Origin: Verrucomicrobiales bacterium
GTDB lineage: Bacteria > Verrucomicrobiota > Verrucomicrobiia > Verrucomicrobiales > DEV007
Assembly: GCA_016795505.1 (NCBI GenBank)
Contig: JAEUHH010000026.1
Span: 1-64,000, forward strand
Direction of reading: 5' to 3'
DNA: 64,000 nucleotides
Numbering within the stretch: position 1 is the stretch's first letter; every line of letters begins with the position of its first letter. Of the stretch, positions 5,902-46,012 are shown piece by piece. The position numbers were made by a program, and so were the translations under genes. Under the pieces are notes generated by a model that saw only the letters and a program-made list of their open reading frames with translations, did not search any database and was not told where the DNA came from.

Positions 5902-6089
5902 CGCTGGCGAACTGCCTGCGGGCGGTTCTTTCCGGCGAGATCCGTGCTGGCGACGTTGGCTTGTGCGATGTCGGCCATTTCCCGTGAGGCTGTCCAAACT
6001 CTCGGGTAGAAGCAGTCTGCCGCCACAAATCCCAATCCGCGAATCGGCCATTGCCGAAAAGTGACGGACTGAGGTTTCCTATCCGCCTC

Positions 6090-10465: not shown

Positions 10466-10619
10466 ATTCTCCTCGCGAACGATCTCTTGGATTTCCGCTT
10501 TTTCCATGTGTTCCGTAGGCCGCGTCTTCTTCGCTCGATTGTAGAACGCCCTATCTACTCCTTCGAAAGACGCGCTCACGTCCTTGCCGCCGAGGGCAAA
10601 ACCTGATTGCCTCGGGGGG

Positions 10620-12233
10620 ATGACTCCCCGCCTCTATCTCGTGCTCGCGGCCTTCTTCGCCGCGTTTTCCCCGAACCTCCCGGCCGAGGAGATCCGCTGG
10701 CTGCTCCACTACGACGGCAAAAGCCTGCCCGCCTCGCTCTGGACCATCACCGGCGCGCCGAAAGCGGCGATCGAGGCCGAGGGGCTGCGCCTGACCGACG
10801 ACTCGGCGGAGTTCGCCCATTTTCAGGCCCCGTGGACCGCGGAACCCGGCACCGAGGTCATCGTCGAGGCCGTCGTGAAAGTCTCGGCCACGACCGGTTC
10901 GCAGAAAAACAAGAGTTCGCTCTCCCTCTGGCCGTGGCGCGACGGCGCTCCGGTCTCCATCCTCGTCAGCGACGGGATCCATCAGGAAGGACTCGTCCTC
11001 TTCGCCAATCAGGCGACGAGCCACACCGACCGTTTTGTCCCGATGGACACGACAAACCGATTTCACACCTACCAACTCGTCATCCGCGGACGCGACATGG
11101 AAATCCGGGTCGATGGCGAACGCAAGGTCACCGGCCAGGGTGCCTTTTGGAAAGAGGCGGATTCGCCCGAGCCCTTCCTCCGCTTCGGCTCGACCGCCAA
11201 AACCGCAACGGGTGAAGCCGTGTGGCAATCCGTGAGGCTCGGGGTGAGGAAGATGAGTGATCCACCGGCCCCCGATCCGGTCAAAATCACGATCGCTGAT
11301 CAATGGGAAATCCCCCGCGAGGACGTGCGCCAGACGAGGCCCTACCTCTACGACCTCGGCGAGGGCCTTCTCCTCATGAGTGTCGCCCAGGGACCCGATG
11401 CCTTTTACGAGCCCTATGGCCTGCTAAAATCGACTGATCAGGGCAAAACCTGGACACCCATCCCCGGTCTCGACCAGGTCGATACCACGCCCCTGCCCGT
11501 CGTGCGTCGACCGGACGGCAGCATCCTCGCGATGTCGCGCTGGACGCGCACCCAGCCCGACGGCAGCGTCGTCGGAAAGACCACCTATCTCGACAAGGAA
11601 GCCAAAACCTTCACCCAGGTCGACAACCGCATCATCCTGCCCAAGGAATTCACCAACGAATCCGAAGGCGACCAGATCATCTGCGAGCGCCATCTCTGGA
11701 ATGATCTCGACGGCGGCCTGACCATGGTGGTGTGGAGCCGCAAGGCCGTGCCCCTGCCCGACGGCCGCAGGAACACCGTGCGCATGTCCCATCTCGTCCG
11801 GAGCACCGACGAGGGGAAAACCTGGAACTACTTCTCGACGATCGGACCCGGCGGCGAGCCGGCCGTGGTGCGTTTGTCAGAGACCGAGCAGACTGCCGTG
11901 ATCCGCGGCGACCGCAATTCGCGGATGAAGCAGATGTTTTCCCACGACGGTGGCAAAACCTGGTCGAAACCCGTCGAACTGGAGGTCGGCAAGGTTCTGC
12001 CCGATCTCGTCCTCATGAGCAACGGCGTCCTCGCCTGCAGCTACGGCCGTCCCGCGAGCTGTCTCATGTTCAGCACCGACCTCGGCCAGACCTGGACCTC
12101 GCACCATGTCATCTCCGAGAGGGTCGGCTTCAACTACACCGCCATCCGCGAGATCTCACCCGGCCGCCTCCTCTACATCCACGACGCGCCGAAGATGAAC
12201 GGGCTGTTCATCGACGTGGAAGTCGTCCGATAA
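10620..12233 (+). CDS. secreted sialidase-like BNR-repeat protein with N-terminal LamG-like domain
   Basis: 537 residues; signal peptide MTPRLYLVLAAFFAAFSPNLPAEE. Residues about 25-215 form a beta-sandwich typical of LamG/DUF1080-like domains (EVIVEAVVKVSATT, QLVIRGRDMEIRVDGE). The rest is a sialidase-type six-bladed propeller with four Asp-box-like motifs: STDQGKTW, STDEGKTW, SHDGGKTW and STDLGQTW. Many exo-alpha-sialidases and other glycan-cleaving enzymes share this fold, so cleavage of sialic acid is only one option. The ATG at 10620 starts the signal peptide; an earlier in-frame ATG at 10584 lies in the repeat-derived leader. Converges with kdpE. Confidence 0.75.
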   Translation: MTPRLYLVLAAFFAAFSPNLPAEEIRWLLHYDGKSLPASLWTITGAPKAAIEAEGLRLTDDSAEFAHFQAPWTAEPGTEVIVEAVVKVSATTGSQKNKSSLSLWPWRDGAPVSILVSDGIHQEGLVLFANQATSHTDRFVPMDTTNRFHTYQLVIRGRDMEIRVDGERKVTGQGAFWKEADSPEPFLRFGSTAKTATGEAVWQSVRLGVRKMSDPPAPDPVKITIADQWEIPREDVRQTRPYLYDLGEGLLLMSVAQGPDAFYEPYGLLKSTDQGKTWTPIPGLDQVDTTPLPVVRRPDGSILAMSRWTRTQPDGSVVGKTTYLDKEAKTFTQVDNRIILPKEFTNESEGDQIICERHLWNDLDGGLTMVVWSRKAVPLPDGRRNTVRMSHLVRSTDEGKTWNYFSTIGPGGEPAVVRLSETEQTAVIRGDRNSRMKQMFSHDGGKTWSKPVELEVGKVLPDLVLMSNGVLACSYGRPASCLMFSTDLGQTWTSHHVISERVGFNYTAIREISPGRLLYIHDAPKMNGLFIDVEVVR

Positions 12234-15555: not shown

Positions 15556-15567
15556 GGTCGGCAGGGA

Positions 15568-16152
15568 TTACTTCAACCCATCCAACGCCAGATTCAACTT
15601 CAGGACATTGACCCTTTTCTCGCCGAACAGGCCGACATCGGGACGTTCGGTGTTCGCGGCGATGATAGCCTCCACGTCAGCGATGTTCAATCCCCGGGCT
15701 TTCGCGACCCGCTTTGCCTGCAAGGCGGCATTTGGCTCGCTGATGTGCGGATCGAGACCGCTTCCCGAGGCCGTCACGGCATCGGCGGGCACCGGTGCAT
15801 CGGCGGCGAGACCGTTACTCGCGCGGTAGGCGGCGATGCGTGCTTTGATCGCGTCATGCAGTTTCTTCGAGGTGGGACCGAGGTTGCTTCCGCTGGAACC
15901 CGCCGCATCGTGTCCGGCACCCGCGGCACTGGGGCGGGGATGGAAATACCCCTCCGCCGCGAAGGACTGACTCAATAGGGTCGAACCGCGGATCTGACCC
16001 TCTTTGTCCACGATCAGGCTGCCGTGCGCCTGCTCGGGAAAGAGGGAGACCGAGACCCCGGTGACCACCAGAGGATAGAGTCCGCAGGTGACCAGGGCGA
16101 GAACGAGGGTGGCGCGGAGGGAGACAATGAGTTCGGATCGAATCGTTTTCAT
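15568..16152 (-). CDS. kdpC: potassium-transporting ATPase subunit C
   Basis: 194 residues: one N-terminal membrane helix (LRATLVLALVTCGLYPLVVTGV) followed by a periplasmic domain with GSTLLSQSFAAEGYFHPRPSA and the C-terminal ASGSGLDPHISEPNAALQ and VNVLKLNLALDGL, all family hallmarks. KdpC is the small accessory subunit of the KdpFABC potassium pump. The gene starts 4 bp after kdpB stops and precedes kdpD by 12 bp. Confidence 0.95.
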   Translation of the reverse strand: MKTIRSELIVSLRATLVLALVTCGLYPLVVTGVSVSLFPEQAHGSLIVDKEGQIRGSTLLSQSFAAEGYFHPRPSAAGAGHDAAGSSGSNLGPTSKKLHDAIKARIAAYRASNGLAADAPVPADAVTASGSGLDPHISEPNAALQAKRVAKARGLNIADVEAIIAANTERPDVGLFGEKRVNVLKLNLALDGLK

Positions 16153-16156
16153 GAGG

Positions 16157-18178
16157 TTAAACCAGATTGAGGGTTGAGATGACGAGATCCACGGCCTTGA
16201 TGCCGATGAAGGGCACGACCACGCCGCCGAGTCCGTAGACGAGGAGGTTCCGACGCAGGATCGCGGCAGCGCCGAGCGGGCGATAAGGCACCCCCTTCAA
16301 CGCGAGCGGGATCAGGGCAATGATGATGAGCGCATTGAAGATCACCGCGCTGAGAATCGCGCTCTCGGGACTGTCGAGCCCCATCACGTTCAGCGGTGCT
16401 ATCGCGGGGAACGTGACCATGAGCATGGCGGGCAGGATCGCGAAATACTTCGCGATGTCGTTGGCGATGCTGAAGGTGGTGAGCGAGCCGCGCGTCATGA
16501 GGAGCTGCTTACCGATCTCGACGATCTCGATGAGTTTCGTCGGGTTGCTGTCGAGATCGACCATGTTCCCAGCCTCGCGCGCGGCCTGTGTCCCGGTGTT
16601 CATCGCCACCCCGACATCGGCCTGGGCGAGTGCCGGGGCATCGTTGGTGCCGTCGCCGGTCATCGCGACGAGGTGGCCTTCCGCCTGCTCGGCCCGGATG
16701 CGTCGCAGCTTGTCCTCCGGCGTGGCCTGGGCCATGAAGTCATCGACCCCGGCCTCGGCGGCGATGGCGGCGGCGGTCATTGGATTGTCGCCGGTGATCA
16801 TGACGGTCTTGATGCCCATCTTGCGGAGTTGGGCGAAACGCTCCTTGATGCCGCCTTTGACGACATCCTTGAGCTCGACGACGCCGAGCACGCGGCTGCC
16901 CTCGGCAACGACGAGCGGGGTCCGGCCGGCCTGCGATGCCGCTTCGACGATCCCGGCGACTGCTCCTGGATACGTCCCCCCCAATCCTTCCACGTGCGCC
17001 TTCATCGAGTCGGCGGCGCCCTTGCGGATGCGGCGCCCGTCCAGATCGACGCCGCTCATGCGGGTCTGGGCGGTGAAAGGGACGAAGACCGCATGCGGGT
17101 GGGAGAGGTCACGCCCGCGGAGGTTGAACTTCTCCTTCGCGAGAACGACGATGCTGCGCCCCTCGGGCGTCTCGTCCGCCAGCGAGGAGAGCTGGGCGGC
17201 GTCGGCCAATTCCGCCTCGGTCACGCCCGGGGCGGGCCGGAAATCGGAAGCCTGGCGGTTCCCGATCGTGATCGTTCCCGTCTTGTCCAGCAAGAGCACG
17301 TCGATGTCCCCGGCGGCCTCGACGGCGCGTCCCGAGGTGGCCATGACATTGCGGCGGATGAGTCGGTCAATCCCGCTGATGCCGATGGCGGAGAGAAGGC
17401 CTCCGATCGTGGTCGGGATGAGGCAGACGAGGAGGGCGACGAGGACGGGGGTGCTGAAATCCACTCCCGAATACACACCGAACGGCTTCAGCGTGACGCA
17501 AACGAGGAGGAAGATCAGCGTCATCGCCGCGAGCAGGATGGTCAGAGCGATCTCGTTCGGCGTTTTCTGGCGTTTCGCACCCTCCACCATCGCGATCATG
17601 CGGTCGAGAAAGGTGTGGCCTTTCTCAGAGGTGATGCGGACGACGATGCGGTCGCTGATGACACGCGTCCCTCCGGTCACGGCACTGCGGTCTCCGCCAC
17701 TTTCGCGGATGACAGGAGCCGACTCGCCGGTGATCGCGGCTTCATCCACGCTGGCGATGCCTTCGATGACTTCGCCGTCCGCGGGGATCACGTCTCCGGC
17801 CTCGCAGACGACGAGGTCGCCTTTTTCCAGGACCGGAGCGGGAACTTTGGTTTCCTCGCCGTTTTTCAAGCGGCGGGCCATCGTGTCCTTGCGGGCTTTG
17901 CGCAAGGAATCCGCCTGCGCCTTGCCGCGGCCTTCCGCGACCGCTTCTGCGAAATTGGCGAACAGCACGGTGAACCAGAGCCAGACACTGAGCTGGACGA
18001 TGAAACCCCGATCCGTCTCCACGGTGAAAATCGAGATCGTCGTGAGCACCGCGCCGACGAGGGTGACGAACATCACCGGGTTTTTCACCATCAGGCGCGG
18101 ATCGAGCTTCTTGAGGGATTCCGCCACCGCCGGCACAAGCACGGAGGGGGCGAATAGGGAGGTGGATCGTTTGGTCAT
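16157..18178 (-). CDS. kdpB: potassium-transporting ATPase subunit B (P-type ATPase)
   Basis: 673 residues, normal length. The P-type ATPase markers are present: the actuator loop [10 protein letters not shown], the phosphorylation site [11 protein letters not shown] (near residue 297), and the hinge [21 protein letters not shown]. The TGES serine, which is a regulatory phosphorylation site in E. coli KdpB, is conserved. Membrane helices occur near 40-85, 215-275 and at the C-terminus. It hydrolyses ATP to drive high-affinity potassium import through KdpA. It is flanked by kdpA (20 bp) and kdpC (4 bp). Confidence 0.96.
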
Positions 18179-18198
18179 GTCAGGAAAGGGTCCGAGTT

Positions 18199-19911
18199 TC
18201 AGAAGAGGTCACCATTGGCCATCAGGAAATGCTCGACGACGGGGCCGAGGGCGAGGGCGGGGAGGAAGTTCAGCGCGCCGATGAGCAGGACCGTGCCGAT
18301 GAGCAGGATCGTGAAGGTGGCGCCACCGACCGGAAAGGTTCCTGAACTGGGCGGCAGGGTCTGCTTCGCCCCGAGGGACCCGGCCAGGGCCATGATCGGA
18401 ACGATCATCAGGAAACGTCCGACGAGCATGGCGAGACCGAGCGTGGTGTTGTACCAGGGTGTGTTCGCGGTGAGGCCGGCGAAGGCGCTGCCGTTGTTCC
18501 CGGTGGCAGAGCTGTAGGCGTACAGCATCTCGCTGAAGCCGTGGGGGCCGGCGTTGTTGAGACCCGCGACACCCCAATCGCTCGCCGCGGCCCACGCGGT
18601 GAGGCCGAGGATGCTCAGGGTGAGCACGAGCAGCGTGAGCATGGCCAATTTCACTTCCTTGGCCTGGATCTTCTTGCCGAGATATTCCGGCGTGCGGCCC
18701 ACCATGAGGCCGGCGATGAAGACGGCCAGCACGACAAAGACGAGCATGCCATAAAGTCCCGCTCCGACCCCGCCGACGACCACCTCGCCCAGCTCAATCA
18801 TGAACAACGGAACGAGGCCGCCGATCGCGGTGAAAGAGTCGTGCATCGAGTTCACCGCTCCACAGGAGGCGGAGGTGGTGATCGTCGCGAAGAGGGCGGA
18901 ATTGAAGACACCGAAACGCACCTCCTTGCCCTCCAGATTGCCGTCCGCGGCGGCAACACCGAGTTGCTGGTGGATGGGATTGCCCTCCGCCTCGAAGTGC
19001 GCGCAGACGAGCACGCCAGCGATGAATAGTGTCATCATCGCGGACCACACCGCCCAGCCGTGCGCCTGATTCTTTACCATGCGTCCGAGGTACCAGGTGA
19101 GCCCGCTCCCGATCGCGAAAATGGAGAGCATCTGGATGAAATTCGACAGCGGCGTCGGATTCTCGAAGGGATGCGCCGCGTTCGCGTTCACGAATCCACC
19201 ACCGTTCGTGCCGAGCATCTTGATCGCCACCTGCGACGCCATCGGGCCCTGGACGATGAGCTGTTCCGCGCCCTCGAGGGTCGTGACCTTCGTGTAGGAA
19301 TCGAAGTTCTGGATCATCCCCTGGGAGACGAGGAAGATCGCGAAAACGAGGCAGACGGGCAGGAGCAGGTAGCAGGTGACACGGACGAGGTCGGTCCAGA
19401 AGTTCCCGAGCGTTTTTGTGGAACTCCTCGCAATCGCCCGGACAAAGGCGGCGGCGATGCCGATCCCGACGGCCGCGGAGACGAAATTGTGGTAGGTCAG
19501 GCCCACCATCTGCGAGAAATACGACATCGTCGCCTCCCCGCCGTAACTTTGCCAGTTCGTGTTGGTCGTGAAACTCACCGCGGTGTTGAAGGCGAGGTGG
19601 GGGCTCAATCCCGGCAGTCCCTGCGGATTCAGCGGCAGAAACCCCTGCAGACGTAGGATCGCGTAGGTGAACACGACGCCGGCGAAGCTGAAGGCCAGCA
19701 TGGAAACGGTGTACTCCTTCCATCCCTGCTCGCGACGCGGGTCGGTCCCGATCAGCCGGTAGATGAACCGCTCGAGCGGGCGGAAGACGGGGTCGAGCCA
19801 GGTCCTGCCATCCGGATCAAGGACGCGGACGAGATAGAGGCCCAGCGGTTTCGTGATCACCGCGAGACATCCGAGGAACAGGGCGAACTGCAGCCAGTCG
19901 TTGGTTTTCAT
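18199..19911 (-). CDS. kdpA: potassium-transporting ATPase subunit A
   Basis: 570-residue polytopic membrane protein, the potassium-binding channel-like subunit. Filter-type segments are visible: [57 protein letters not shown] and [14 protein letters not shown], each carrying the Gly of a selectivity loop. It is preceded by the tiny kdpF (9-bp gap) and followed by kdpB. Length and termini ([18 protein letters not shown]) agree with the family. Confidence 0.96.
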
Positions 19912-20308: not shown

Positions 20309-21172
20309 ATGAAAGCTCGTCTCGCCCTTCTCCTCCTTGCATGCCTCGCATCCCCGGCATTCTCCCAAGTGTCTCCGAAAACCCTCCCCTACGTCGACGA
20401 CGGCCATGACCGCCACCTCCTCGACATTTACGCCCCCAACGGAGCAAAGAACCTGCCCGTCGTCTTCTGGATCCACGGTGGAGGCTGGCAGACGGGCGAC
20501 AAGTCGAGCGTGCAGGAAAAGCCGCGCTACTTCATGGAGAAAGGCTTCGTCTTCGTCTCGACGAACTACCGGCTGCTCCCCGAGGTCGAGATGGGCATGC
20601 TGATCCGCGACGTGGCCAAGGCCCTCGCCTGGACCCACCGGCACATCGCGGAGCACGGCGGCGATCCGTCGCGGATCATCGTCGGGGGCCACTCCGCCGG
20701 CGCCCAGTTGGCCGCGATCCTGTGCACCGACGAGCGCTATCTGAAGGAGGAAGGCCTCGATTTCTCGGGGCTGAAGGGTTGTGTCCCGGTCGATGGCGAC
20801 ACCTACGACATTCCCGCCATCATCGAGACCGCGGAGACGCGCCGCCGCGTCCATCACGAGCCGCAGGCAAAGTTCGGTCATCGCGAAAAGTTCGGCAACG
20901 ATCCCGCGAAACACGTCGATTTCTCCGCCGTCACCCACGTCGCGAAGGACAAGGGCATTCCGCCGTTCCTCATCCTCCACGTCGCGGATCACCCGGATGT
21001 CAGCGCCCAAGCGCGGCGTTTCGGTGCGGTTCTGAAGGAGGCCGGCATTCCGGTGACGGTGCACGGCCAGAAGGAGACGAATCACACCCGCATCAACGCC
21101 GAGATCGGCACCGAAGGCGATCCGGTGACGCCGGTGCTGTCCGAGTTTTTGGCTAAATGCCTCAAGCCCTGA
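20309..21172 (+). CDS. secreted alpha/beta-hydrolase (HSL/BD-FAE-type esterase)
   Basis: 287 residues; signal peptide [20 protein letters not shown]. Oxyanion-hole motif HGGGW (56-60) and nucleophile motif GHSAG with Ser129 mark the hormone-sensitive-lipase/BD-FAE esterase group; the His of the triad is likely in ETNHTRIN near the C-terminus. Such enzymes remove acetyl or other acyl groups from carbohydrates. It is the first gene of a plus-strand run of five exported proteins, with only 4 bp to the next gene, so an acyl-glycan substrate is the likely context. Confidence 0.85.
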
Positions 21173-21176
21173 TTTC

Positions 21177-22724
21177 ATGAAAGCCGCCGGCCTTCTCGTC
21201 CTCGCGCTGGCGGCTTCCGCCACGGCCGCTGAACCGATCCAGATCGGCAAGGAGCGCCAGTTGTTCCTCGACGACCACCTCATCGAGCACACCGAGCATC
21301 TCGTCCGCCGGGTCCAGCCAGCGAAGAAACACGAGGCCAATCCGCTGATCGTGCCGAAGGAGGCGTGGGAGCCCGAAGGCTACGTGGTGCCGAGCGTGCT
21401 CTACGACGAGGAGGAAAAGCTCTTCAAGTTGTGGGCCGACGGCTACGGCATCGGCGTCTTCTATTTCACGAGCAAGGACGGCATCCATTGGGATCGACCC
21501 GCGCTGCGGCTCTTTCCCGAGTTCGATTCCGGACCGACCAACCGCGTCATCCTCAGCGGCAGCGAGATCGATGTCGAGGACGCCCCGCCGGACAAGCTCG
21601 ACTACATGCGGTCGCGCGAAGCGGGCTGGCGCTACTTCGGTCATGCCAGCGGGGTCATCAAGGACCCGCGCGAAACCGACCCGGCGAAACGCTACAAGAT
21701 GGCCTTCCTCTGGATCAACCGGCAGCACCAGCCGCCCGGTGCGACCCGCGCGGGCAAGTTCATCGCCATGGGCGCGGCCTTCAGTCCCGACGGCATCCAC
21801 TGGACCCCGGTGAACGAACCCGTCTGCCGGGCCACCGTCGATCTGCCCTTCCACATCAACTACGACGAGAAACGCCGTCGCTGGGTGCTCTACGGTCGCG
21901 TCACCGGCGTGGTCTCGGAGGAAAAGAAGGCCGCCCATGCTGCGGATCCGAACCTGCAGTACAACATGGGCCGCGCCGTGATCCGTTGCGAGAGCGAGGA
22001 CTTCCTCCACTGGACGCCGGAGAAGGGCGAGCTCGTCATGGCCAGCGACGCCCGTGACAGCACCCTGACCGAGATCTACGATCTGCGCAGCGTGCCCTAC
22101 GCGGGACTTCACCTCGGCTTCGTCCACGCCTTCATCAACGAGCCGGACCACGTCGCCCTGCCCATCCAGCTCGCCGTGAGCCGCGACAACCGCACCTGGC
22201 AGCGGCTCGACGACCGCTCGCCCTTTCTCGGCAATGGCGGTCTCGGCGAATGGGACCGCGGCGTCATCTCGCCTCCGACGGCCGATCCGGTCACGGTCGG
22301 CGATGAGCTGCGCTTCTATTACACCGGCCGGAACACGCTGCACAGCACGCGGTGGAAATTCGAGGACAATCCCAAGCTCCTCGGCCACATCGCCCCTTTC
22401 CGCGGTTCCCTCGGTCTCGCCACGATCCGGCGCGACCGCTTTGTCGCCATGGAAGGCAACTTCCGGCCCGGCATCCTGCGAACGAAGCCCTTTGTCCACG
22501 ATGGCTCCGTCCTTCACGTCAACGCCGCGGTGCCCTTCGGGATCCTCACCGTGAGCCTGCTCGACGAGTCGGGCCAGTCCCTGCAGAAGGTGACGGTCCA
22601 GGGACGCGATGACACCTCCATCGCCCTCCCGGAACTGACCAAGATCGCCGGTCGCAAAGGACAGCCGGTGCGGCTGGAGTTCGCAGTGCAAAACGGCCGG
22701 CTCTTTTCGTTTTGGATCGAGTGA
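21177..22724 (+). CDS. secreted beta-propeller glycoside-hydrolase-like protein (GH43/GH32-like fold)
   Basis: 515 residues; signal peptide MKAAGLLVLALAASATAAEP. The mature start QIGKERQLFLDDHLIE and repeated blade motifs such as YFTSKDGIHWDRP, AAFSPDGIHWTPVNEP and CESEDFLHWTPEKGE suggest a five-bladed propeller like GH43/GH32/GH130 relatives. Tryptophans in the HW repeats are typical of such blades. Catalytic acids cannot be assigned by eye. It is placed second in the five-gene operon, 4 bp after the esterase and 17 bp before the DUF4838 gene. Confidence 0.65.
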   Translation: MKAAGLLVLALAASATAAEPIQIGKERQLFLDDHLIEHTEHLVRRVQPAKKHEANPLIVPKEAWEPEGYVVPSVLYDEEEKLFKLWADGYGIGVFYFTSKDGIHWDRPALRLFPEFDSGPTNRVILSGSEIDVEDAPPDKLDYMRSREAGWRYFGHASGVIKDPRETDPAKRYKMAFLWINRQHQPPGATRAGKFIAMGAAFSPDGIHWTPVNEPVCRATVDLPFHINYDEKRRRWVLYGRVTGVVSEEKKAAHAADPNLQYNMGRAVIRCESEDFLHWTPEKGELVMASDARDSTLTEIYDLRSVPYAGLHLGFVHAFINEPDHVALPIQLAVSRDNRTWQRLDDRSPFLGNGGLGEWDRGVISPPTADPVTVGDELRFYYTGRNTLHSTRWKFEDNPKLLGHIAPFRGSLGLATIRRDRFVAMEGNFRPGILRTKPFVHDGSVLHVNAAVPFGILTVSLLDESGQSLQKVTVQGRDDTSIALPELTKIAGRKGQPVRLEFAVQNGRLFSFWIE

Positions 22725-22741
22725 GGATTTCCCCCGCGGCG

Positions 22742-24553
22742 ATGAAACGGTTCCTCTTTATCATTCCCTTTCTCCTCGCCACGATCGAGGCGGCCGAAAT
22801 CGTCGTGGTCGACGACCGCCGCTCCGAGCACGTCATTCACCACGCGCCCGGGGCCGACGCCACGACGGTGCTGGCGGCCCGCGAATTGCAGCGGGGCATC
22901 CAGAACGCCACCGGCGTGATGCTGCCCATCGTCACCGATGCCCCGGCCGGACCGGCTCTGCGGCTCGTTTCCGAGCCGACACTGCCGCAGGATGGCTTCG
23001 AGATCCGGAGCGAAGGACGCGATCTCATCTTCGCGGGCAACGACACCCAGACCGGTGCCGCGGGCGATACGTGGTTTGTCCCCAGTCAGGGAGTCTACTT
23101 CGGCGTGGTGGAGTTCCTCGAGCGTTTCCTCGGCGCCCGCTGGCTCATGCCCGGTGAATGGGGCGAGGAAATCCCGACTCGCCAGGAACTTCGCGTCGTG
23201 CTCGACGAGCCGCTCCGCGGTTCGCCCGGCTTTGCCGTGCGCCAGCTCGCCTACGTCGGCGAGAGCGATCCGAATTGGCCGGGACGGCCGAAATCCGAGA
23301 CGACCAACTGGATGCGCCGTCATCGCCTGACAAACGCCTTCCACGCGCATGTCGCCGGATACGGCCATTCCTGGGACGATTACCTGAAACCCGCCGACAT
23401 GGAGGCGCATCCCGAATGGAAATCGACCCGGGGCGACGCGGTGCGCAACGGCAAGGTCGCCTTTTTCTGCACCACGGCACCGGGCCTCGTCGATCTCTTC
23501 GCCGCCCGCGTCATCGAGTCGATGGACCGGAATCCGAACCGCCCCATGTCCTCGATCTCGCCGACCGACGGCGGCGGCTTCTGCGATTGCGACCGCTGCA
23601 AGAAGCTCATCGGCACCGATCCCCACGGAAAACCGAACCACGCCCTCGCGATCCTCACCTTCTACCAACAGGTCGCCGCGATCGTCGCCCGCGAGCGGCC
23701 CGGCCGCCGCCTCGGCGGTTTCGTCTACTACAACTACCAGTATCCGCCGGAGCATCCACCCGCCCTGCCCGAAAATCTCTCCCTCTGCTGGGCACCGCTG
23801 AACTACTACGGCTACGGCCTCCTCAAGCCCGTCTACCGCAATGAGTTCGACGGCGTCATGAAACGCTGGGCGGAGCTCGCGCCGCGCTTCACCTACCACA
23901 ACTACTCGACCTGGATGCGCTGCTACCACGGTGCGCCCTTGCCCGTCTCGCTCGACATCCTCGGACGCGAACTGCCCGCCGCCGCCGCGAACCGCGCCTG
24001 GGGTGCCCGCATGGTCGGCACGACCGCGTGGGGAGTGAATGCGCCGGTCAATTACCTCATCGCGAAGCAACTCTGGAATCCCGGACTCGATCTCTCCGCG
24101 ACGCTCGACGAGTGGCTTTCCCTAGCCTACGGCCCCGGGTGGCCCGAGATGCGCGGGCTCTACGACGCCCTCGACGAGCGGATGCGCCTCCACAAGGAAG
24201 CCGAGTCGCCCGTTTACAAAGGCAGCCAATACGAGATCAACGCCGCCGTGATGCGCGCGGTCTACGCGCCTTTTTTCCCGGAGATGGAGCGCCGTTACCT
24301 CGCCACTCAATCCCGCTGCGGGACCGAGCCGCAGCGGCGGCGCCTCGCGATGTTTGGCGACAATCTCATCCAGCTCCATCACGCCCTGAGGAATGCCGGA
24401 CTCCTCGAGCGGCCCGAGACCTCCACCTTCCACCGCGACGATGCGGCCTTCGCTGATTTTCTCAAGAGCATGGAGTCCGGCTTCAGCCTTTACCGCGCCG
24501 AGCGTGGCCTTGACCACGGCCCCATCTGGGAGGGAGAATACCGTGCTCCATGA
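22742..24553 (+). CDS. secreted DUF4838 protein, GH67/GH20-like fold
   Basis: 603 residues; signal peptide MKRFLFIIPFLLATIEAAE. The N-terminal part (VLAARELQRGIQNATGVMLP) is the alpha/beta domain seen ahead of GH20/GH67 barrels. The middle region carries FCDCDRCKKLIG, the Cys-rich signature of DUF4838, followed by GGFVYYNYQYPPEHPP. The third part is helical. DUF4838 proteins are frequent in polysaccharide-degrading loci of Verrucomicrobiota and Bacteroidota, but no activity is settled for the family. The stop codon overlaps the next start (ATGA at 24550), so it is translationally coupled to the SGNH hydrolase. Confidence 0.78.
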   Translation: MKRFLFIIPFLLATIEAAEIVVVDDRRSEHVIHHAPGADATTVLAARELQRGIQNATGVMLPIVTDAPAGPALRLVSEPTLPQDGFEIRSEGRDLIFAGNDTQTGAAGDTWFVPSQGVYFGVVEFLERFLGARWLMPGEWGEEIPTRQELRVVLDEPLRGSPGFAVRQLAYVGESDPNWPGRPKSETTNWMRRHRLTNAFHAHVAGYGHSWDDYLKPADMEAHPEWKSTRGDAVRNGKVAFFCTTAPGLVDLFAARVIESMDRNPNRPMSSISPTDGGGFCDCDRCKKLIGTDPHGKPNHALAILTFYQQVAAIVARERPGRRLGGFVYYNYQYPPEHPPALPENLSLCWAPLNYYGYGLLKPVYRNEFDGVMKRWAELAPRFTYHNYSTWMRCYHGAPLPVSLDILGRELPAAAANRAWGARMVGTTAWGVNAPVNYLIAKQLWNPGLDLSATLDEWLSLAYGPGWPEMRGLYDALDERMRLHKEAESPVYKGSQYEINAAVMRAVYAPFFPEMERRYLATQSRCGTEPQRRRLAMFGDNLIQLHHALRNAGLLERPETSTFHRDDAAFADFLKSMESGFSLYRAERGLDHGPIWEGEYRAP

Positions 24554-25407
24554 AGATCCGATTCACCACCCTGGTCGCGGCACTGGTCCTGACCATCGAC
24601 CTGTCCCTCCCGGTCAGGGCGGAGGACGCCGGACCGTGGCGCGTCTTCTACACCGGTCACAGCTTTGCCGGAGCCGCGCCTGCCTGGCTGGGATCGCTGG
24701 CTCAGCAGGGTGGGGTGGCCGGCTATGAGAATCTCGGCCGCCAATCGCTAGGTGGTTCCCGGGTCATCGACCATTGGAACCTCGCTGACGAGAAAAATAT
24801 CGCCAAGAAGACCCTGGCCACCGGCACCGTCGATGTGCTCGTGCTGGCGCCGAACATGCATATGCCCGACGAGGGCATCGATCGCTTCGTCGACCTCGCC
24901 CGGCAGCACCATCCCGCGGTTCGCATTGCCGTGCAGGCCTCGTGGATGACCTGGGACGGACTCGGCCGGAACGGCATCACCAATGCCGGGCGAGACACCC
25001 GGCCCGTTTCCGAGATCCGCGAGCGGACCATGAAACACCTCGACGAGGTGCGCGCCCAGCTCCGCGCCATCAATGCCCGCGTCGGTGCCGACATCTGCCA
25101 CCTCATCCCCACCGGCGCCGCCGTGGTGCGGCTGCGGGAGCGCATCGCGGCGGGCGAGCTTCCCGGATACGACCGGCCCTCGCTGCTCTTTCACGACGAT
25201 ATCGGGCATGCCGGATTGGCCGTGCAGCACCTCAATGCCTACCTTCATTACGCCGTCATTTTCCGGCGGGATCCCCGCACCCTCGCTGGCATCGGCTGGC
25301 CCGTCCGCGAGCCCGAGCCCGTGCCGGGTTTCCGCAAAATTCTCCTCGAGATCGCCTGGGAGTCCGCCCTTGCCGAGCCCCTCAGTGGCGTGACCGACGC
25401 GCTGTGA
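24550..25407 (+). CDS. secreted SGNH-like hydrolase
   Basis: 285 residues; signal peptide about 1-24 (MKIRFTTLVAALVLTIDLSL then PVRAED). Block I of the SGNH fold is YTGHSFAG with Ser38, a GHS variant of the usual GDS; the C-terminal block has FHDDIGHAG, whose Asp and His would complete the triad. These features fit carbohydrate esterases of the SGNH group. The ATG overlaps the stop of the DUF4838 gene by 4 bp. It is likely the second esterase of the same degradation operon. Confidence 0.7.
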   Translation: MKIRFTTLVAALVLTIDLSLPVRAEDAGPWRVFYTGHSFAGAAPAWLGSLAQQGGVAGYENLGRQSLGGSRVIDHWNLADEKNIAKKTLATGTVDVLVLAPNMHMPDEGIDRFVDLARQHHPAVRIAVQASWMTWDGLGRNGITNAGRDTRPVSEIRERTMKHLDEVRAQLRAINARVGADICHLIPTGAAVVRLRERIAAGELPGYDRPSLLFHDDIGHAGLAVQHLNAYLHYAVIFRRDPRTLAGIGWPVREPEPVPGFRKILLEIAWESALAEPLSGVTDAL

Positions 25408-25433
25408 ACGCCCATCCATTCAACTTCCCTGAC

Positions 25434-26369
25434 ATGAAAGCCCCCGTTCTGCTGACCAGCCTGCTCGCCCTCCTCATGCCGCTGCCGCTCGCCGCCCAGG
25501 AGCCCGAGATCGCCACCACGCTCACCTTCACCGAGGGGCCGACGGTGGATACCGATGGCAGCGTCTATTTCACCGAGATCATCACCCAGCGCATCATCAA
25601 GCTCGGTCCCGACGGTCGGCAGACCACCTGGAGGGAGAACAGCAATGTCGCCAACGGCCTGCTCATCGATCCCCAGCGCCGCCTCGTCGCCTGCGAAGGC
25701 GCCACCTTCGAGCGGCCCGGTGTGAAAGTCAGCGGCATCCCGCGGGTGACCCGAACCGATCTCGCCACCGGGCAGATGGAGATCCTCGCGGACAACTACG
25801 AGGGACGGCCCCTGACCGGGCCGAACGATGTCACCATCGATTCGAAGGGTCGCCTCTACTTCACCGAACTGGGAGGCGCCGCCGTCTATCGCATCGATGC
25901 CCCGGGCCGCATCGCCCGCATTCTCGCCGCGCCCGATGTGCAAAATCCCAACGGCATCCAAGTTTCCCCCGACGACCGGTATCTCTACCTTGTCGAGGCC
26001 AACCAGAAGGCCGGCGGTGCCCGTCTCATCCGCCGCTACGACCTCCAGCCGGACGGCACCGTGACGAACATGAAAATCCACTTCGATTTCTCCCCCGGCC
26101 GCAGCGCCGACGGCATGAGCATCGACGAGGCCGGCAATCTCTGGGCGGCGGCGGGGCTCAACCAGTTGCGCGGCACCTCCGAGACCCTGGACACGAAGTG
26201 CGGCGTCCATGTCATCTCGCCCGAGGGCAAGCGGATCCAGTTCATCCCCATCCCCGAGGACACCATCACCAACACCGCCTTTGGTGGTCCCGACCGGAAG
26301 ACTCTTTACATCACCGCTGGCAAGAATCTCTATCGCATCCGCACCGAGATACCCGGCCTGCCGCGCTGA
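25434..26369 (+). CDS. secreted SMP-30/gluconolactonase-like protein
   Basis: 311 residues; signal peptide MKAPVLLTSLLALLMPLPLA. Six-bladed propeller motifs of the SMP-30/gluconolactonase group are seen: TFTEGPTVDTDGSVYFTE, the Asn-containing NVANGLLIDPQRRLVACEG, PNDVTIDSKGRLYFTE, NPNGIQVSPDDRYLYLVE and ADGMSIDEAGNLWAA; the Glu, Asn and Asp positions bind the catalytic calcium. These enzymes hydrolyse sugar lactones. It ends the five-gene operon, 26 bp after the SGNH gene, and is followed by a hairpin at 26396. Confidence 0.8.
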   Translation: MKAPVLLTSLLALLMPLPLAAQEPEIATTLTFTEGPTVDTDGSVYFTEIITQRIIKLGPDGRQTTWRENSNVANGLLIDPQRRLVACEGATFERPGVKVSGIPRVTRTDLATGQMEILADNYEGRPLTGPNDVTIDSKGRLYFTELGGAAVYRIDAPGRIARILAAPDVQNPNGIQVSPDDRYLYLVEANQKAGGARLIRRYDLQPDGTVTNMKIHFDFSPGRSADGMSIDEAGNLWAAAGLNQLRGTSETLDTKCGVHVISPEGKRIQFIPIPEDTITNTAFGGPDRKTLYITAGKNLYRIRTEIPGLPR

Positions 26370-27685: not shown

Positions 27686-28432
27686 TCAATTTCGATTTGC
27701 CGTTCGCATCTCCTCCAGCACCGGCAGCAGGGCATCGGCCCAGCGGCGGTAACCGGCGGGACTGAGGTGCAGGTGGTCGGGCATGAGGTCGGGCCGGGTG
27801 TGGCCGCGCTCGTCGAGAAAGGTGTCCCAGAGGCGCAGGTGGCGCACGTGATCGTCGCCGGCTCCGATGCGGGCGAGGCCGCGATTGGTCTCGACGACAG
27901 CCCGGCGGTAGGCATCGTCGGGGCTGGCGCCGCGGGGGAACAGGTCGAGCAGCAGCACCTCGGCGTCGGGCAGGCGCTGGCGCAGGGTTTTTACCACGGC
28001 GGCGATGCCGCGCAGCACGTCGGCGGGCGGGTCATTGTGGAGGCCGATGTTGTTGGTGCCGATCAGCACGACGACGACGCGGGGCCGGACGTGATCGAGG
28101 GCGCCGCCCGTGGTGAGGCGCCAGAGGAGATTCTGGGTGGTGTCGCCGCCGATGCCGAAATTGGCGGCGCGGAGGGGCTCGAAGGCATCGCGCCACACGG
28201 CCTGGCCGGTTTTGTCCCAGTCCTCGGTGATGGAGTCGCCGACGAAGAGCAGGTCCACGGGCCCGGCCTGGGCGCGGGCGAGATCGGCCTCGTGGAAGGC
28301 GCTCCACTTGTCGAGCGACATCCAGGAGTAGGCCTTTTGCCGGGGCAGGGGCTGGTCGGGGGCCTCGCGGGCGGGCAGGTCGGGTGTGGCGGCGGCGAGG
28401 CTGAGCAGGCAGGTGAGGAGGAGTCGGTGCAT
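27686..28432 (-). CDS. secreted SGNH/GDSL hydrolase (PAF-acetylhydrolase-like)
   Basis: 248 residues; signal peptide MHRLLLTCLLSLAAATPDLP. All SGNH blocks are visible: LLFVGDSITEDW (Ser67), NFGIGGDTTQNLLWRL (Gly), VVVVLIGTNNIG (Asn) and LMPDHLHLSPAGYRRW (Asp and His). The closeness to the PAF-acetylhydrolase gamma pattern (GDSIT, GGDTT, GTNN) suggests a carbohydrate acetyl-esterase. An upstream in-frame ATG 6 codons earlier adds only MPRHPP and was not used. It is divergent to the first of three sulfatase genes, 119 bp away. Confidence 0.88.
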   Translation of the reverse strand: MHRLLLTCLLSLAAATPDLPAREAPDQPLPRQKAYSWMSLDKWSAFHEADLARAQAGPVDLLFVGDSITEDWDKTGQAVWRDAFEPLRAANFGIGGDTTQNLLWRLTTGGALDHVRPRVVVVLIGTNNIGLHNDPPADVLRGIAAVVKTLRQRLPDAEVLLLDLFPRGASPDDAYRRAVVETNRGLARIGAGDDHVRHLRLWDTFLDERGHTRPDLMPDHLHLSPAGYRRWADALLPVLEEMRTANRN

Positions 28433-28551
28433 GGGCGGATGGCGGGGCAAGGATAGGGTGAAACGGGCGGGGCAGGCAAGGCCGGCTCGCTGCGGTGGGG
28501 CGATTTCACGGGATTGCCATTTCGGGCGCGACGGGATAGAAAGGCGGGACG

Positions 28552-30081
28552 ATGAAAATGACTCCCCGACTGTTTCCTGCCGTCCTGCTGGCCGGTGCCC
28601 TGATGATGGGTGCCGCCGGCGCGGCCGAGCGACCCAATGTGGTCTTCATACTGGCTGATGATCTCGGGTATGCCGAGCTGGGCTGCTACGGGCAGAAAAA
28701 GATCCGCACGCCGCGGATCGACCAGTTGGCGGCGCAGGGCATGCGCTTCACCCGCGCCTACTCGGGCAATGCGGTCTGTGCGCCGTCGCGCTGTGTGCTG
28801 ATGACGGGGCGCCACCCCGGCCACGCGCGGGTGCGGGACAATCAATCGATGCAGCCGGAGGGGCAGTATCCACTGGAGGCGGGCGATGTGACGCTGGCGG
28901 AGCGGCTCGGCGGACTGGGCTACACGAGCGGGATCTTTGGCAAGTGGGGCCTGGGCAACATGGAGTCGGCAGGCAACCCGCTGAAGCAGGGCTTTGCGCG
29001 GTTTTACGGCTACAACTGCCAGGGCAAGGCGCACACCTACTACCCGGACACGCTGTGGAGCGACGGGGCGGTGGTGGCGCTGAAGAATGATCCGCCGGTG
29101 CCGGGCCATGCGGGGCTGCCGGAGGGAGCTGATCCGCGGGATCCGCGCAGCTACGATGTCTTCAAGGGGCAGGACTATGCGCCGGATCGCATTCACGAGC
29201 AGGCGCTGAAGTTCATCCGCGACCAGCGCAACGGTCCGTTCTTTCTCTACTACCCGACGATCATTCCCCACGTGGCGCTGCATGTGCCGGACGAGCACTT
29301 GAAGCCCTATCTGGATCTGAAGTGGAATGATCCGCCTTTCACCCGCGAGAAGGGGGGCTACACGCCGCACTTCACGCCGCGGGCGGCCTATGCGGCGATG
29401 ATCTCGTTGATGGACCGGCACGTGGGCGAGGTGCTCGATCTGCTGGATGAGCTGAAACTGGCCGACAACACGATCGTGGTGTTTTCCTCGGACAATGGGA
29501 CGACGCATCTGGGCGAGGAGGTGGACTACACGTTCTTTGAAAGCGTGGGCCGGCTGCGGGGGCTGAAGGGGTCGCTCTACGAGGGCGGCATCCGGGTCCC
29601 ACTGATCGTGCGCTGGCCGGGACGGGTGCCGGCGGGTGCGGTGTCCGACGCGGTGACGGGATTCGAGGACTGGGTGCCGACTTTGCTGGACTTGATCGGC
29701 ACAGACGCGCCCGCTGCGGGCGAGGTGGACGGCGTGAGCCTGGCGCGGGCACTGCGCGGGGAGGACCAGCCGGAGCGGGCGTTTCTCTACCGGGAATTTC
29801 CCAGCTATGGGGGTCAACAGGCAGTGTGGCTGGGACAGCGCTGGAAAGGGATCCGGCAGAATCTGATGCCGCGCGGCGGTGGCAAAGGGAAGGGGAAAGG
29901 CAAGGCCGCGCCGGTGGAGATCCGCACGGAGCTGTATGACCTGCTCGCCGACGAATCGGAGTCGACGGATGTGGCAGCCCAGCATCCGGATGTCGTCGGA
30001 AAGATCGAAGCGCTGATGCGCAGCGAGCGGACGGTGTCGGAGGCGTTTCCGTTTCCGGCCCTGGATCGGCTGAAGAATTGA
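28552..30081 (+). CDS. secreted type I sulfatase 1
   Basis: 509 residues; signal peptide about 1-25 (PAVLLAGALMMGAAGAAE). Metal-binding NVVFILADDLGYAELGCYG and the formylglycine motif CAPSRCVLMTGR with Cys76, Pro78 and Arg80 show an S1 (type I) sulfatase that needs Cys-to-formylglycine maturation. FGKWGLGNM and FSSDNGTTH are further conserved segments. A GK-rich insert (GGGKGKGKGKAAP, near 442-455) sits just before the C-terminal ELYDLLADESESTDVA module. It releases sulfate from an unknown sulfated glycan or ester. First of three sulfatase genes in tandem; 92 bp separates it from the second. Confidence 0.93.
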   Translation: MKMTPRLFPAVLLAGALMMGAAGAAERPNVVFILADDLGYAELGCYGQKKIRTPRIDQLAAQGMRFTRAYSGNAVCAPSRCVLMTGRHPGHARVRDNQSMQPEGQYPLEAGDVTLAERLGGLGYTSGIFGKWGLGNMESAGNPLKQGFARFYGYNCQGKAHTYYPDTLWSDGAVVALKNDPPVPGHAGLPEGADPRDPRSYDVFKGQDYAPDRIHEQALKFIRDQRNGPFFLYYPTIIPHVALHVPDEHLKPYLDLKWNDPPFTREKGGYTPHFTPRAAYAAMISLMDRHVGEVLDLLDELKLADNTIVVFSSDNGTTHLGEEVDYTFFESVGRLRGLKGSLYEGGIRVPLIVRWPGRVPAGAVSDAVTGFEDWVPTLLDLIGTDAPAAGEVDGVSLARALRGEDQPERAFLYREFPSYGGQQAVWLGQRWKGIRQNLMPRGGGKGKGKGKAAPVEIRTELYDLLADESESTDVAAQHPDVVGKIEALMRSERTVSEAFPFPALDRLKN

Positions 30082-30173
30082 GGATTCCGCCCCTCTGAAG
30101 CGGAACTCCCGCCGTTCGTGGGGGTTTCCTCGGGGTCGGGCGCTTCGGCCGGGCCATTTCACGCTGTCTTCCC

Positions 30174-31640
30174 ATGAAACTGACTTTTTCCACTGCCACG
30201 ATCTTCGCGTTGCTGGGTTGCCTTGCCATGGCGGTCGTGGCGGGGGCGGCGGAGTCGCGGCCGCACATCATCTTCGTCATGGCCGACGACATGGGCTGGG
30301 GCCAGACGGGTTACCGGGGCCATCCGCGGCTGAAGACGCCGCATCTGGATGCGATGGCGGCCAATGGGCTGCGCTTCGAGCGGTTTTACGCGGGCGGGCC
30401 GGTCTGTTCGCCGACGCGGGCGAGCGTGTTGACCGGTCGCACCCACGACCGGACCGGAGTGCTCAGCCACGGCTACGCGCTGCGACGGCAGGAGAGGACG
30501 ATCGCCCAGTCGCTCCGGGCGGCGGGGTATGTGACGGGGCATTTCGGCAAGTGGCACCTCAGTGGCTACCGGGGTCCCGGCGCGCCGGTGCTGCGGGATG
30601 ATCCGCGGGGGCCGGGGGCCTTCGGCTTCGACACGTGGACGTCGATGACGAATTTCTTCGACCGCGACCCGCTGATGTCGCGGCAGGGGGAATTCGTGGA
30701 GCTGAACGGCGACTCCTCGGAGATCGCGGTGGATGAGGCGGTGGCCTTTCTCGAACGGCATCGGGGCGGGAAGCAGCCGGTCTTTGCGGTGATCTGGTAT
30801 GGCTCTCCGCACAGTCCGTTTCGGGCGCTGGAGGCGGATCGGGCGCTCTTTTCCGATCTGGACGATGCCTCCGCGGATCACTACGGCGAGCTGGTGGCGA
30901 TGGACCGCAGCATCGGCACGCTGCGAGCGAAGCTGAGAGAGTTTGGCATGGCGGAAAACACGATGCTTGTCTTTTGCAGCGACAACGGCGGCCTGCCCGG
31001 CATCGAGCCGGGCACGGTGGGTGGGCTGCGCGGCCACAAGGGCTCGGTGTTCGAGGGCGGCCTGCGGGTGCCGGGCATCATCGAGTGGCCGGCGGCGATC
31101 CAGCCCCGGGTGACGAGTCATCCAGCCTGTGTGACCGACCTGTTTCCCACCGTGGCCGACATCGTCGGCCTGCCGGACGATGCGCTGCTGCGACCGGTGG
31201 ATGGCGTGAGCCTGAAGCCGCTCTTTGCCGGCGAGACGGGGCCGAGAACCGCGCCGCTGGGATTCCGCTACGCGAAAAAGGCGGCCCTGATCGACAACGG
31301 GCATAAGATCCTGACCGAAGACCTCGGAAAGGGCGTCTTTCACGTTTACGATCTGGAGACCGACCCGAACGAGACGACCGATCTGTCGGCCAGTCAGCCC
31401 GAATTGACGGCCCGGCTGCGCGAGGCCCTGCTGGCCTTCGACGCCTCGGTGAGCGCGAGCTTTGCCGGTCGCGACTATCCGGGAGGCGCTCTCAGCGAGC
31501 CCGATCCCGACCCGGTCTCCTGGCACGAGACGGAGGCCTACCGTCCCTATTTGGAGTCCTGGAAATCCCGCCGCGAATATGGCTCCACGATGGAGCTTCA
31601 GGCGAAGCGGGCTAAAGAACCGAAGAAATCCCCCAACTGA
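30174..31640 (+). CDS. secreted type I sulfatase 2
   Basis: 488 residues; signal peptide about 1-27 (TIFALLGCLAMAVVAGAAES). HIIFVMADDMGWGQTGYRGH supplies the first metal ligands, CSPTRASVLTGR the formylglycine site (Cys78, Arg82), then FGKWHLSGY and FCSDNGGLP. The C-terminus ends with ELQAKRAKEPKKSPN, a Lys-rich tail. It lacks the GK insert of the flanking sulfatases. Only 9 bp separate it from sulfatase 3, so the two are co-transcribed. Confidence 0.93.
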   Translation: MKLTFSTATIFALLGCLAMAVVAGAAESRPHIIFVMADDMGWGQTGYRGHPRLKTPHLDAMAANGLRFERFYAGGPVCSPTRASVLTGRTHDRTGVLSHGYALRRQERTIAQSLRAAGYVTGHFGKWHLSGYRGPGAPVLRDDPRGPGAFGFDTWTSMTNFFDRDPLMSRQGEFVELNGDSSEIAVDEAVAFLERHRGGKQPVFAVIWYGSPHSPFRALEADRALFSDLDDASADHYGELVAMDRSIGTLRAKLREFGMAENTMLVFCSDNGGLPGIEPGTVGGLRGHKGSVFEGGLRVPGIIEWPAAIQPRVTSHPACVTDLFPTVADIVGLPDDALLRPVDGVSLKPLFAGETGPRTAPLGFRYAKKAALIDNGHKILTEDLGKGVFHVYDLETDPNETTDLSASQPELTARLREALLAFDASVSASFAGRDYPGGALSEPDPDPVSWHETEAYRPYLESWKSRREYGSTMELQAKRAKEPKKSPN

Positions 31641-31649
31641 CCGACCGAT

Positions 31650-33491: not shown

Positions 33492-33552
33492 GACGCATCT
33501 CCGTCGGGGAGTGAGGTTGTCAATCGCGGGCCGGCTGGGATAATATCGCCCC

Positions 33553-34746
33553 ATGAATTGGAAACGACGCGCCTTTATCTCCTCCTCCGTGGCCACTGCC
33601 GGAGCCGCCCTGATCTCCCCATCACGGGCTGCCGAAGGCTCCCGGATGCGTGTCGCGGTGATCGGTCACACCGGGCGCGGGAACTATGGCCATGGCATCG
33701 ACACCCTGTGGCTCGACTTGCCGGAAGCCGAGATCGTCGCCGTTGCCGATGCTGATGAGCGCGGTCTCGCCACCGCAGTGGAGCGGCTCAAAGCCCCGAA
33801 GGGCTATGCCGACTACCGCCAGATGCTCGCCGAGGCCAAAGCCGACATCGTCGCCATCGGTCCGCGGCATGTCGACCAGCACCGGGACATGGTCGTGGCC
33901 GCCGCGGAGGCGAGCGCCAGGGGCATCTACATTGAGAAACCCCTCTGCCGGACCCCGGCCGAAGCCGACGAGATGGTTGCCGCCTGCGAAAAGGCCAACA
34001 CCAAAGTCGCGGTGGCTCATCGCAATCGTTACCATCCCGCGCTGGCTGCGATCGACAAACTTGTCGCCGAGGGCGCCATCGGCCGGCTGCTGGAGATCCG
34101 CGCCCGCGGCAAGGAGGACCAGCGAGGGGGCGCCCTCGACCTCTGGGTGCTGGGATCGCATCTGCTGAACTTGATCCACTACTTTGGAGGAACGCCGCTG
34201 GCCTGCTCCGCAACTCTGCTTCAGGATGGCCGTCCGGTGACGAAAGCCGATGTGAAAGAGGGCGACGAGGGCGTCGGCGCACTCGCCGGGAATGCCGTCC
34301 ATGCCCGGTTTGAGATGGAGCGTGGCTTTCCCGCCTTTTTCGACTCCGTCCAGGGTGCCGGGAACAGCGCAGCCGGCTTCGGCATCCAACTCATCGGCAC
34401 CGGGGGCATCATCGACCTCCGCGCCGACAAGGAGCCGACCGCGCATCTGCTCGCCGGCAGCCCATTTCAGCCCGTCACTGATCCGCGCGCCTGGCAGGTC
34501 ATCACCAGCGGAGGAGTGGGCGTGCCTGAGCCGGTCAAGGACATCCGGATGCAGGTCGGCGGCCATCACAGGCCCGCGCGTGACCTGATCGCCGCGATCA
34601 GCGAGGACCGTCCGCCCCTGTGCAGTCTGGAGGATGCCCGGCTCACCGTTGAGATGATCATGGCCATCTTCGGAAGTCACCGGCTCGGCGGCGGCCGGGT
34701 GGAGTGGCCGCTGAAGGAGCGGGGAAATCCACTGGCTGCGTGGTAA
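33553..34746 (+). CDS. Tat-exported Gfo/Idh/MocA-family oxidoreductase
   Basis: 397 residues. The N-terminus MNWKRRAFISSSVATAGAAL is a twin-arginine signal (RRAFIS) that would export the folded, cofactor-loaded protein. The Rossmann nucleotide-binding start is MRVAVIGHTGRGNYGHG, with a later EKPLCRTPAEADEMV (the catalytic EKP motif) and VAVAHRNRYHPALAAIDKLV. Substrate is probably a sugar or inositol derivative. Exported members are frequent in Verrucomicrobiota and Planctomycetota and often accompany sulfatases and glycosidases. It follows the sulfatase trio in the same direction. Confidence 0.88.
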   Translation: MNWKRRAFISSSVATAGAALISPSRAAEGSRMRVAVIGHTGRGNYGHGIDTLWLDLPEAEIVAVADADERGLATAVERLKAPKGYADYRQMLAEAKADIVAIGPRHVDQHRDMVVAAAEASARGIYIEKPLCRTPAEADEMVAACEKANTKVAVAHRNRYHPALAAIDKLVAEGAIGRLLEIRARGKEDQRGGALDLWVLGSHLLNLIHYFGGTPLACSATLLQDGRPVTKADVKEGDEGVGALAGNAVHARFEMERGFPAFFDSVQGAGNSAAGFGIQLIGTGGIIDLRADKEPTAHLLAGSPFQPVTDPRAWQVITSGGVGVPEPVKDIRMQVGGHHRPARDLIAAISEDRPPLCSLEDARLTVEMIMAIFGSHRLGGGRVEWPLKERGNPLAAW

Positions 34747-45945: not shown

Positions 45946-46012
45946 TCAAGGAGCAGGGGCGCCCCCGCCCCTATTGGGTGGTGACAGGGCCGGGGGCGGC
46001 CCTGCTCCTTGA
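45946..46012. repeat. REP-like palindrome, family 2, right copy
   Basis: TCAAGGAGCAGGGGCGCCCC, a 15-base loop region (ATTGGGTGGTGACAG), then GGCGGCCCTGCTCCTTGA. Its arms match those of the left copy. On the minus strand this repeat encodes the last residues and the stop codon of the Ser/Thr kinase. Confidence 0.92.

Follow-up and report, generated by a model that had tools for sequence, protein, structure and literature searches.

On contig JAEUHH010000026.1 of a Verrucomicrobiales bacterium of the Akkermansiaceae type (lineage DEV007, assembly GCA_016795505.1), five genes lie close together at positions 20309-26369 of the 64,000-nucleotide stretch that was analysed, here called the window. 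A preliminary description had regarded them as an exported carbohydrate-degradation operon, encoding a full route for an acylated, uronic-acid-containing glycan with a lactone formed at the end. Our results point to a more modest cluster, in which the first three genes would form the functional core. The five genes are as follows.

20309..21172, + strand: gene 1, predicted secreted alpha/beta hydrolase of the BD-FAE/Abhydrolase_3 type (esterase), assigned from Pfam and motifs
21177..22724, + strand: gene 2, predicted secreted five-bladed beta-propeller with a C-terminal beta-sandwich and a fold like that of glycoside hydrolase (GH) families GH130/GH43/GH32, assigned from a structure model, without a Pfam family
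22742..24553, + strand: gene 3, predicted secreted DUF4838 protein (PF16126), with an N-terminal domain as in GH67/GH115/GH20/GH84
24550..25407, + strand: gene 4, predicted secreted SGNH-like protein with GHS for GDS and a D-x-x-G-H block, local add-on
25434..26369, + strand: gene 5, predicted secreted SMP-30/gluconolactonase-like (SGL) protein, local add-on

The five open reading frames (ORFs) contain no internal stops and follow each other at distances of 4, 17, -4 (an overlap) and 26 bp, as had been described before. The listed ORFs with starts at 20162, 22712 and 24942 extend genes 1, 3 and 5 in the upstream direction. The GC content by codon position follows a coding pattern in all five genes, with third-position GC of 0.82-0.86. 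Close spacing of genes on one strand is typical of a single transcript, and the five genes are probably transcribed as one. A consensus scan revealed no promoter-like site immediately upstream of gene 1 and no excess of terminators (5 found vs. 5.8 expected), and no shared leader upstream of gene 1 could be demonstrated beyond about 70-100 bases. On inspection by eye, all five proteins show a Lys/Arg start followed by a hydrophobic stretch and a site resembling AxA, and such signal-peptide-like N-termini suggest that all five may be exported. None of the five proteins exceeded a cut-off in NCBIfam.

Gene 1 reached 96.3 bits against Pfam BD-FAE (PF20434; cut-off 26.8) and contains the motifs HGGG (56-59) and GHSAG (from 127, with S129) as well as H259. 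With its score above the gathering cut-off and the serine and oxyanion motifs in place, it is predicted to be a BD-FAE-type esterase, resembling the BD-FAE and hormone-sensitive-lipase-like esterases in these features. Gene 2 matched no Pfam family at E 0.1, and the NCBIfam beta-1,2-mannobiose phosphorylase gave 14.7 bits only (cut-off 450). However, its AlphaFold2 model was confident (79 sequences; predicted local distance difference test, pLDDT, 91.0; predicted template-modelling score, pTM, 0.90) and is predicted to fold as a five-bladed GH130/GH43/GH32-like propeller. In VIA-align, whose lists indicate families and exclude none, the first several rows were tied overall; the model matched GH130 9fj8 (Z 24.5, root-mean-square deviation (rmsd) 2.5, 269 residues), the N-acetylgalactosamine (GalNAc) deacetylase 6n1a of F. 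plautii (Z 24.3, rmsd 3.5, 309 residues) and GH43/GH62 rows (Z 20-24). Gene 2 is thus like the GH130 mannoside phosphorylases/hydrolases and the GH43/GH32 propellers in its five blades and a Z of about 24, and differs from them in belonging to none of their Pfam families and in an identity to GH130 rows of 14-18%. The C-terminal sandwich presumably resembles that of GH32. Furthermore, 6n1a was Foldseek rank 1 and the best match when a gene-2 profile was searched against solved structures (E 1.3e-13), at an identity of only 14-18%; this profile match falls into three separate stretches, two of which pair different propeller blades. A literature search combining GalNAc deacetylase with 'propeller' found nothing. 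D32, D222 and D294 are among the residues kept in at least 90% of the 79 sequences and are candidates for the active site.

Gene 3 scored 108.9 bits against DUF4838 (cut-off 26.6) and belongs to this family, which has 9 matches in the whole genome. When 25 DUF4838 proteins were aligned, R167, C243, D276, C281, Y329, P335, P336 and W376 were among the positions that never varied, and C283 and C286 were kept in at least 90%. D276, which sits in SPxDGG, may be catalytic, and the cysteines 243, 281, 283 and 286 may bind metal. The structure model was of low confidence (pLDDT 65.9, built from 8 sequences). Its matches were GH115, GH67, GH20 and GH84, and the top GH115 rows gave Z 13.0 and rmsd 13.1 over 382 residues of this weak model. 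The best solved match of the DUF4838 profile was the GH67 alpha-glucuronidase 1k9d (E 4.2e-9), through two stretches that were weak singly (0.0019, 0.029). Searches of solved structures with genes 2, 3 and 4 singly by phmmer gave nothing useful. The preliminary description held that DUF4838 has no settled activity, which is too strong, as a passage of PMC9870897 labels a Polaribacter DUF4838 protein as GH163, endo-beta-N-acetylglucosaminidase. A GH163 enzyme of B. thetaiotaomicron cleaves N-acetylglucosamine (GlcNAc)-beta-1,2-mannose (Man), as stated in a passage of PMC10154615. BT1044 of the same species was considered as the GH163 enzyme and discarded, as a passage of PMC8374693 names it GH18. 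Gene 3 thus appears weakly like the GH67/GH115 glucuronidases, while the GH163 label in print concerns a different DUF4838 protein. A literature search for PF16126 by accession found nothing and one for DUF4838 a single paper, and a scan of viral contigs found no DUF4838 relatives.

Conservation of the gene order was followed in 141 genomes (140 relatives and the window's own, G000) and in a contig collection of 84,980 species, in which a gene-2 alignment scan gave 391 relatives; the top 80 loci were retained. An identity of at least 57% was used for gene-2 orthologs, giving 13 loci (L111-L122 and L125), and at least 63% for orthologs of genes 1 and 3. Neighbours were sought within the available flanks (within 10 kb), and several loci end early at contig ends. 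Neighbour families come from Pfam checks; only in G070 (DUF1080) and in L113 and L121 (ceramidase-like) do they come from clustering with a member that had been checked in this way. In the 141 genomes, gene-2 orthologs were present in G000, G070 (97%), G028 (96%) and G136 (76%), the next match being at 41%, and gene-3 orthologs in G028, G070, G136, G092, G020 and G033. Besides those of G028 and G070, the nearest relatives of gene 3 found were 63-65% identical proteins of other genomes and metagenome-assembled genomes (MAGs). Only G028 and G070 had genes 1, 2 and 3 contiguous and in this order (140 relatives; 20 loci examined). Both belong to another genus, and the identities of the three genes were 79-80, 96-97 and 93-94%, respectively. 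The similarity stops where the core stops.

24550..24556, + strand: end of the similarity to G028 and G070, which is the end of gene 3

Thereafter, G028 continues with a gene of PF06439 (3-keto-disaccharide hydrolase, DUF1080; E 2.6e-40) and G070 with one of the same family, followed in both by a dihydroorotase-like gene (named from sequence). DUF1080 proteins are described as 3-ketoglycoside hydrolases in a passage of PMC9007349. In the contig collection, gene 1 and/or gene 3 lay near the gene-2 ortholog in 5 of the 13 loci: contiguous in L111 and L112, which together with L125 appear to be the G070, G028 and G136 records; both within 6.2 kb in L118, with ceramidase-like (PF04734) and hydrolase-like genes between; gene 3 in L113; and gene 1 in L121. 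None of the 13 had gene 4 or gene 5. Indeed, relatives of these two genes (E 1e-6 and a length above 70 residues) were found in none of the 80 loci, and the five genes together in none of the 140 related genomes. The five genes as a conserved unit were therefore rejected; the lack of conservation, which the preliminary description had named as decisive, holds for the whole set and not for genes 1-3.

The records of the 13 loci are mostly titled Verrucomicrobia; L117, L118 and L122 are titled Bacteroidetes, Akkermansia muciniphila and Planctomyces, and are possibly mislabelled MAGs. Record titles across the wider gene-2 family include Verrucomicrobia, Planctomycetes, Acidobacteria, Poribacteria, Armatimonadetes and further groups. 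In L114, L115, L116, L117 and L125, a paralog of 27-29% identity lies directly upstream of the gene-2 ortholog, which suggests a paired propeller enzyme. L160 has four tandem members of the family on one 9.4 kb contig.

Behind the core lie two further genes. The only Pfam match of gene 4 was Lipase_GDSL_2 (PF13472) at 16.4 bits, below the cut-off of 32.9, and 'SGNH esterase' is therefore the weakest of the earlier labels. Its motif-like H37-S38-F39 and D216..G219-H220 are kept in at least 90% of 20 rows. Compared with the standard SGNH blocks I and V, they are altered: GDS reads GHS, and the spacing of the conserved Asp and His is 4. Ser38 and His220 are plausible catalytic residues. In the 141 genomes, relatives of gene 4 reached at most 42% identity and stood at other genomic places. 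The window also contains a clear SGNH/GDSL hydrolase at 27686-28450 (Lipase_GDSL_2, 97.5 bits), unlike gene 4. Gene 5 reached 143.5 bits against SGL (PF08450; cut-off 26.3), with solved relatives 8djf and 7ris. Its E34, N131, N173 and D226 lie at SMP-30 motif positions and are the putative metal ligands; three motifs align with 8djf, D226 does not. It differs from SMP-30/gluconolactonase in being exported, as predicted, and in having no dehydrogenase partner in the operon. Outside G000, its identity was at most 45% (14 genomes searched, 13 others).

The core itself is unusually little diverged in genes 2 and 3. At fourfold sites, the window differed from G028 at 45/130 (0.35) in gene 1, 43/261 (0.16) in gene 2 and 45/319 (0.14) in gene 3, and from G070 at 39/131, 27/263 and 18/208, respectively; gene 3 of G070 is split across two contigs and was compared over its first 390 codons. 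As controls, part of rpoB differed from G028 at 106/222 sites (0.48), and recA at 61/121 (0.50) from G028 and 67/134 (0.50) from G070. rpoB had no match in G070 and its G033 row was dropped as out of frame, and recA had no match in G001. Genes 2 and 3 are much less diverged than rpoB and recA, and it therefore looks as if the core, or at least genes 2-3, was recently transferred horizontally between Verrucomicrobia. The window groups with G028 and G070 in the gene 2 tree (100/100) and, at low support (80/79), in the gene 3 tree, where G020 is distant. In the gene 1 tree, G028, G070 and G020 group (100/99) with the window outside. These differences in tree and divergence among the three genes indicate that the core is a mosaic.

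The best explanation, which we consider fairly probable, is a secreted glycan-degradation cluster without SusC/D, with genes 1-2-3 as its functional core and genes 4-5 as local additions. The BD-FAE-type serine esterase would strip acyl groups, and the propeller enzyme and the DUF4838 glycosidase would then, outside the cytoplasm, cut glycosidic or perhaps N-acyl bonds. Horizontal transfer would spread the core, or genes 2-3 at the least, between Verrucomicrobia. The SGNH-like protein and the SMP-30-type lactonase would stand behind the core where two relatives have a DUF1080 gene. The earlier view of an exported carbohydrate-degradation operon holds for the esterase, the glycosidase-fold propeller, the DUF4838 and SGL proteins, the export-like N-termini and the probable single transcript, and fails for the five as a unit. 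Several observations weigh against a fixed core. Eight of the 13 gene-2 ortholog loci have neither gene 1 nor gene 3, some of them being cut by contig ends, and in G136 the three genes are on three different contigs. G020 and G092 have orthologs of genes 3 and 1, and G033 of gene 3, all without a gene-2 ortholog. As genes 1-3 also occur apart, they may not form one obligatory pathway. Furthermore, the history of gene 1 is partly other than the recent history of genes 2-3, codon bias could partly explain the low fourfold divergence, and the transfer is judged against two marker genes only.

The preliminary description stressed that neither SusC/D nor a transporter gene is present. This is correct for the five genes. 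However, SusD (PF07980) had no match in the whole genome and other Verrucomicrobiota are also reported to lack it, so that missing SusC/D at this locus is uninformative and was rejected as a notable trait. TonB plug domains (PF07715) number four in the genome, with none on the contig. Passages of PMC11980603 describe Verrucomicrobiota without SusCD that have TonB and secreted enzymes, and the carbohydrate-active enzyme (CAZyme) gene clusters reported there are similar to ours in having secreted glycan-active genes in a row without SusC/D. In contrast to those clusters, the family of 2 of the 5 genes here is not confidently assigned, and different genera have the core in common at very low divergence. 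Clusters of glycan and sulfatase genes in freshwater Verrucomicrobia (PMC5615132) and a link of Akkermansiaceae to fucose-rich glycans (PMC13174399) are likewise described in the passages concerned. The same gene set was not found in these literature passages on Verrucomicrobiota glycan clusters.

In the surroundings of the five genes, one further gene may be an outlying member of their set.

10584..12233, + strand: BNR-repeat protein, possible outlying member

Its gene is 70% identical to the gene L121:3572-5158, which lies 2.4 kb from a gene-2 ortholog, and 50% identical to one near gene 2 of L115. The set of glycan genes may therefore reach beyond the five. Kdp genes separate the BNR gene from the five genes: 12907-19911 carries a kdpD-like gene and kdpC/B/A, named from sequence (kdpA by NCBIfam). 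kdpA was missing in all three congeners searched and was present at 66-68% identity in a pair of genomes from a different genus; the region is therefore variable. A PF04734 ceramidase-like gene lies at 6051-7523, with relatives of 25-28% identity beside the gene-2 orthologs of L113, L118 and L121. L117 has a glucuronyl-esterase-like gene (GCE_fung, 2.9e-11) near its gene-2 ortholog. On the other side, three consecutive sulfatases followed by an exported-looking Gfo/Idh/MocA-type dehydrogenase (28552-34746) make up a second secreted glycan cluster. Further on are an ORF of 2747 aa with FG-GAP, PD40 and DUF11 repeats (36082-44325, minus strand) and a serine/threonine protein kinase whose C-terminal part is long (45946-49383).

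A complete route of five steps that would degrade an acylated uronic-acid glycan, with the SMP-30 protein opening a lactone last, is very unlikely in our view. The tight spacing of the genes, the GH67 match of the DUF4838 profile, the GH115 rows at the top for the gene 3 model and the GCE_fung-like gene of L117 speak for it. However, none of the other genomes searched has the five-gene set, the GH67 stretches are singly weak, and the gene 3 model is of low confidence with an rmsd of about 13. The uronic-acid substrate draws only on this weak likeness to GH67/GH115, against which stands the GH163 label in print. A lactone as the last product is also not borne out, since the five genes include no sugar dehydrogenase to make it and conservation of the others does not extend to the lactonase. 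Another possibility, which is less improbable though still doubtful, is that the core acts on an N-acetylhexosamine glycan, with gene 3 as a GH163-like (endo-)beta-N-acetylglucosaminidase, gene 2 as a propeller glycosidase or deacetylase, and the recurrent ceramidase-like and BNR genes included. It agrees with the GH163 label of the Polaribacter protein, the GlcNAc-beta-1,2-Man activity of the B. thetaiotaomicron enzyme, the first place of 6n1a in both the profile search and Foldseek together with its VIA-align Z, and the PF04734 family beside three gene-2 orthologs. However, the 6n1a match in three stretches, two across different blades, may reflect a generic blade motif, and VIA-align ties 6n1a with GH130. 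The GH163 label belongs to another DUF4838 protein.

It is also conceivable, though unlikely, that the grouping is opportunistic, with secreted hydrolases gathered at a variable site and each acting alone. In several genomes genes 1-3 are indeed apart, the sequence after gene 3 varies between genomes, and the absence of the neighbouring kdpA from the three congeners searched marks a variable region. However, genes 1, 2 and 3 recur nearby in 5 of the 13 loci, in different arrangements that are not all independent, which is far above the roughly 0.3% that we estimate for a given gene to fall within 20 kb in a 6 Mb genome. We thus return to the SusC/D-less cluster with the three-gene core: a fairly ordinary sugar-degradation cluster whose core is real and probably mobile. 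A bolder extension is quite unlikely, namely that gene 2 founds a new and widespread family of secreted propeller enzymes, which joins a DUF4838/GH163-like glycosidase and an esterase of the BD-FAE type in a horizontally mobile module of three enzymes for an N-acetylhexosamine glycan in aquatic Akkermansiaceae and Verrucomicrobiaceae.

These results correct the tempting reading of five neighbouring genes as a five-step pathway, and point to a pair worth assaying, the propeller family missed by Pfam and the adjoining DUF4838 protein. The very low divergence of genes 2 and 3 at silent sites across genera suggests that small cassettes of secreted glycan enzymes are exchanged among Akkermansiaceae.

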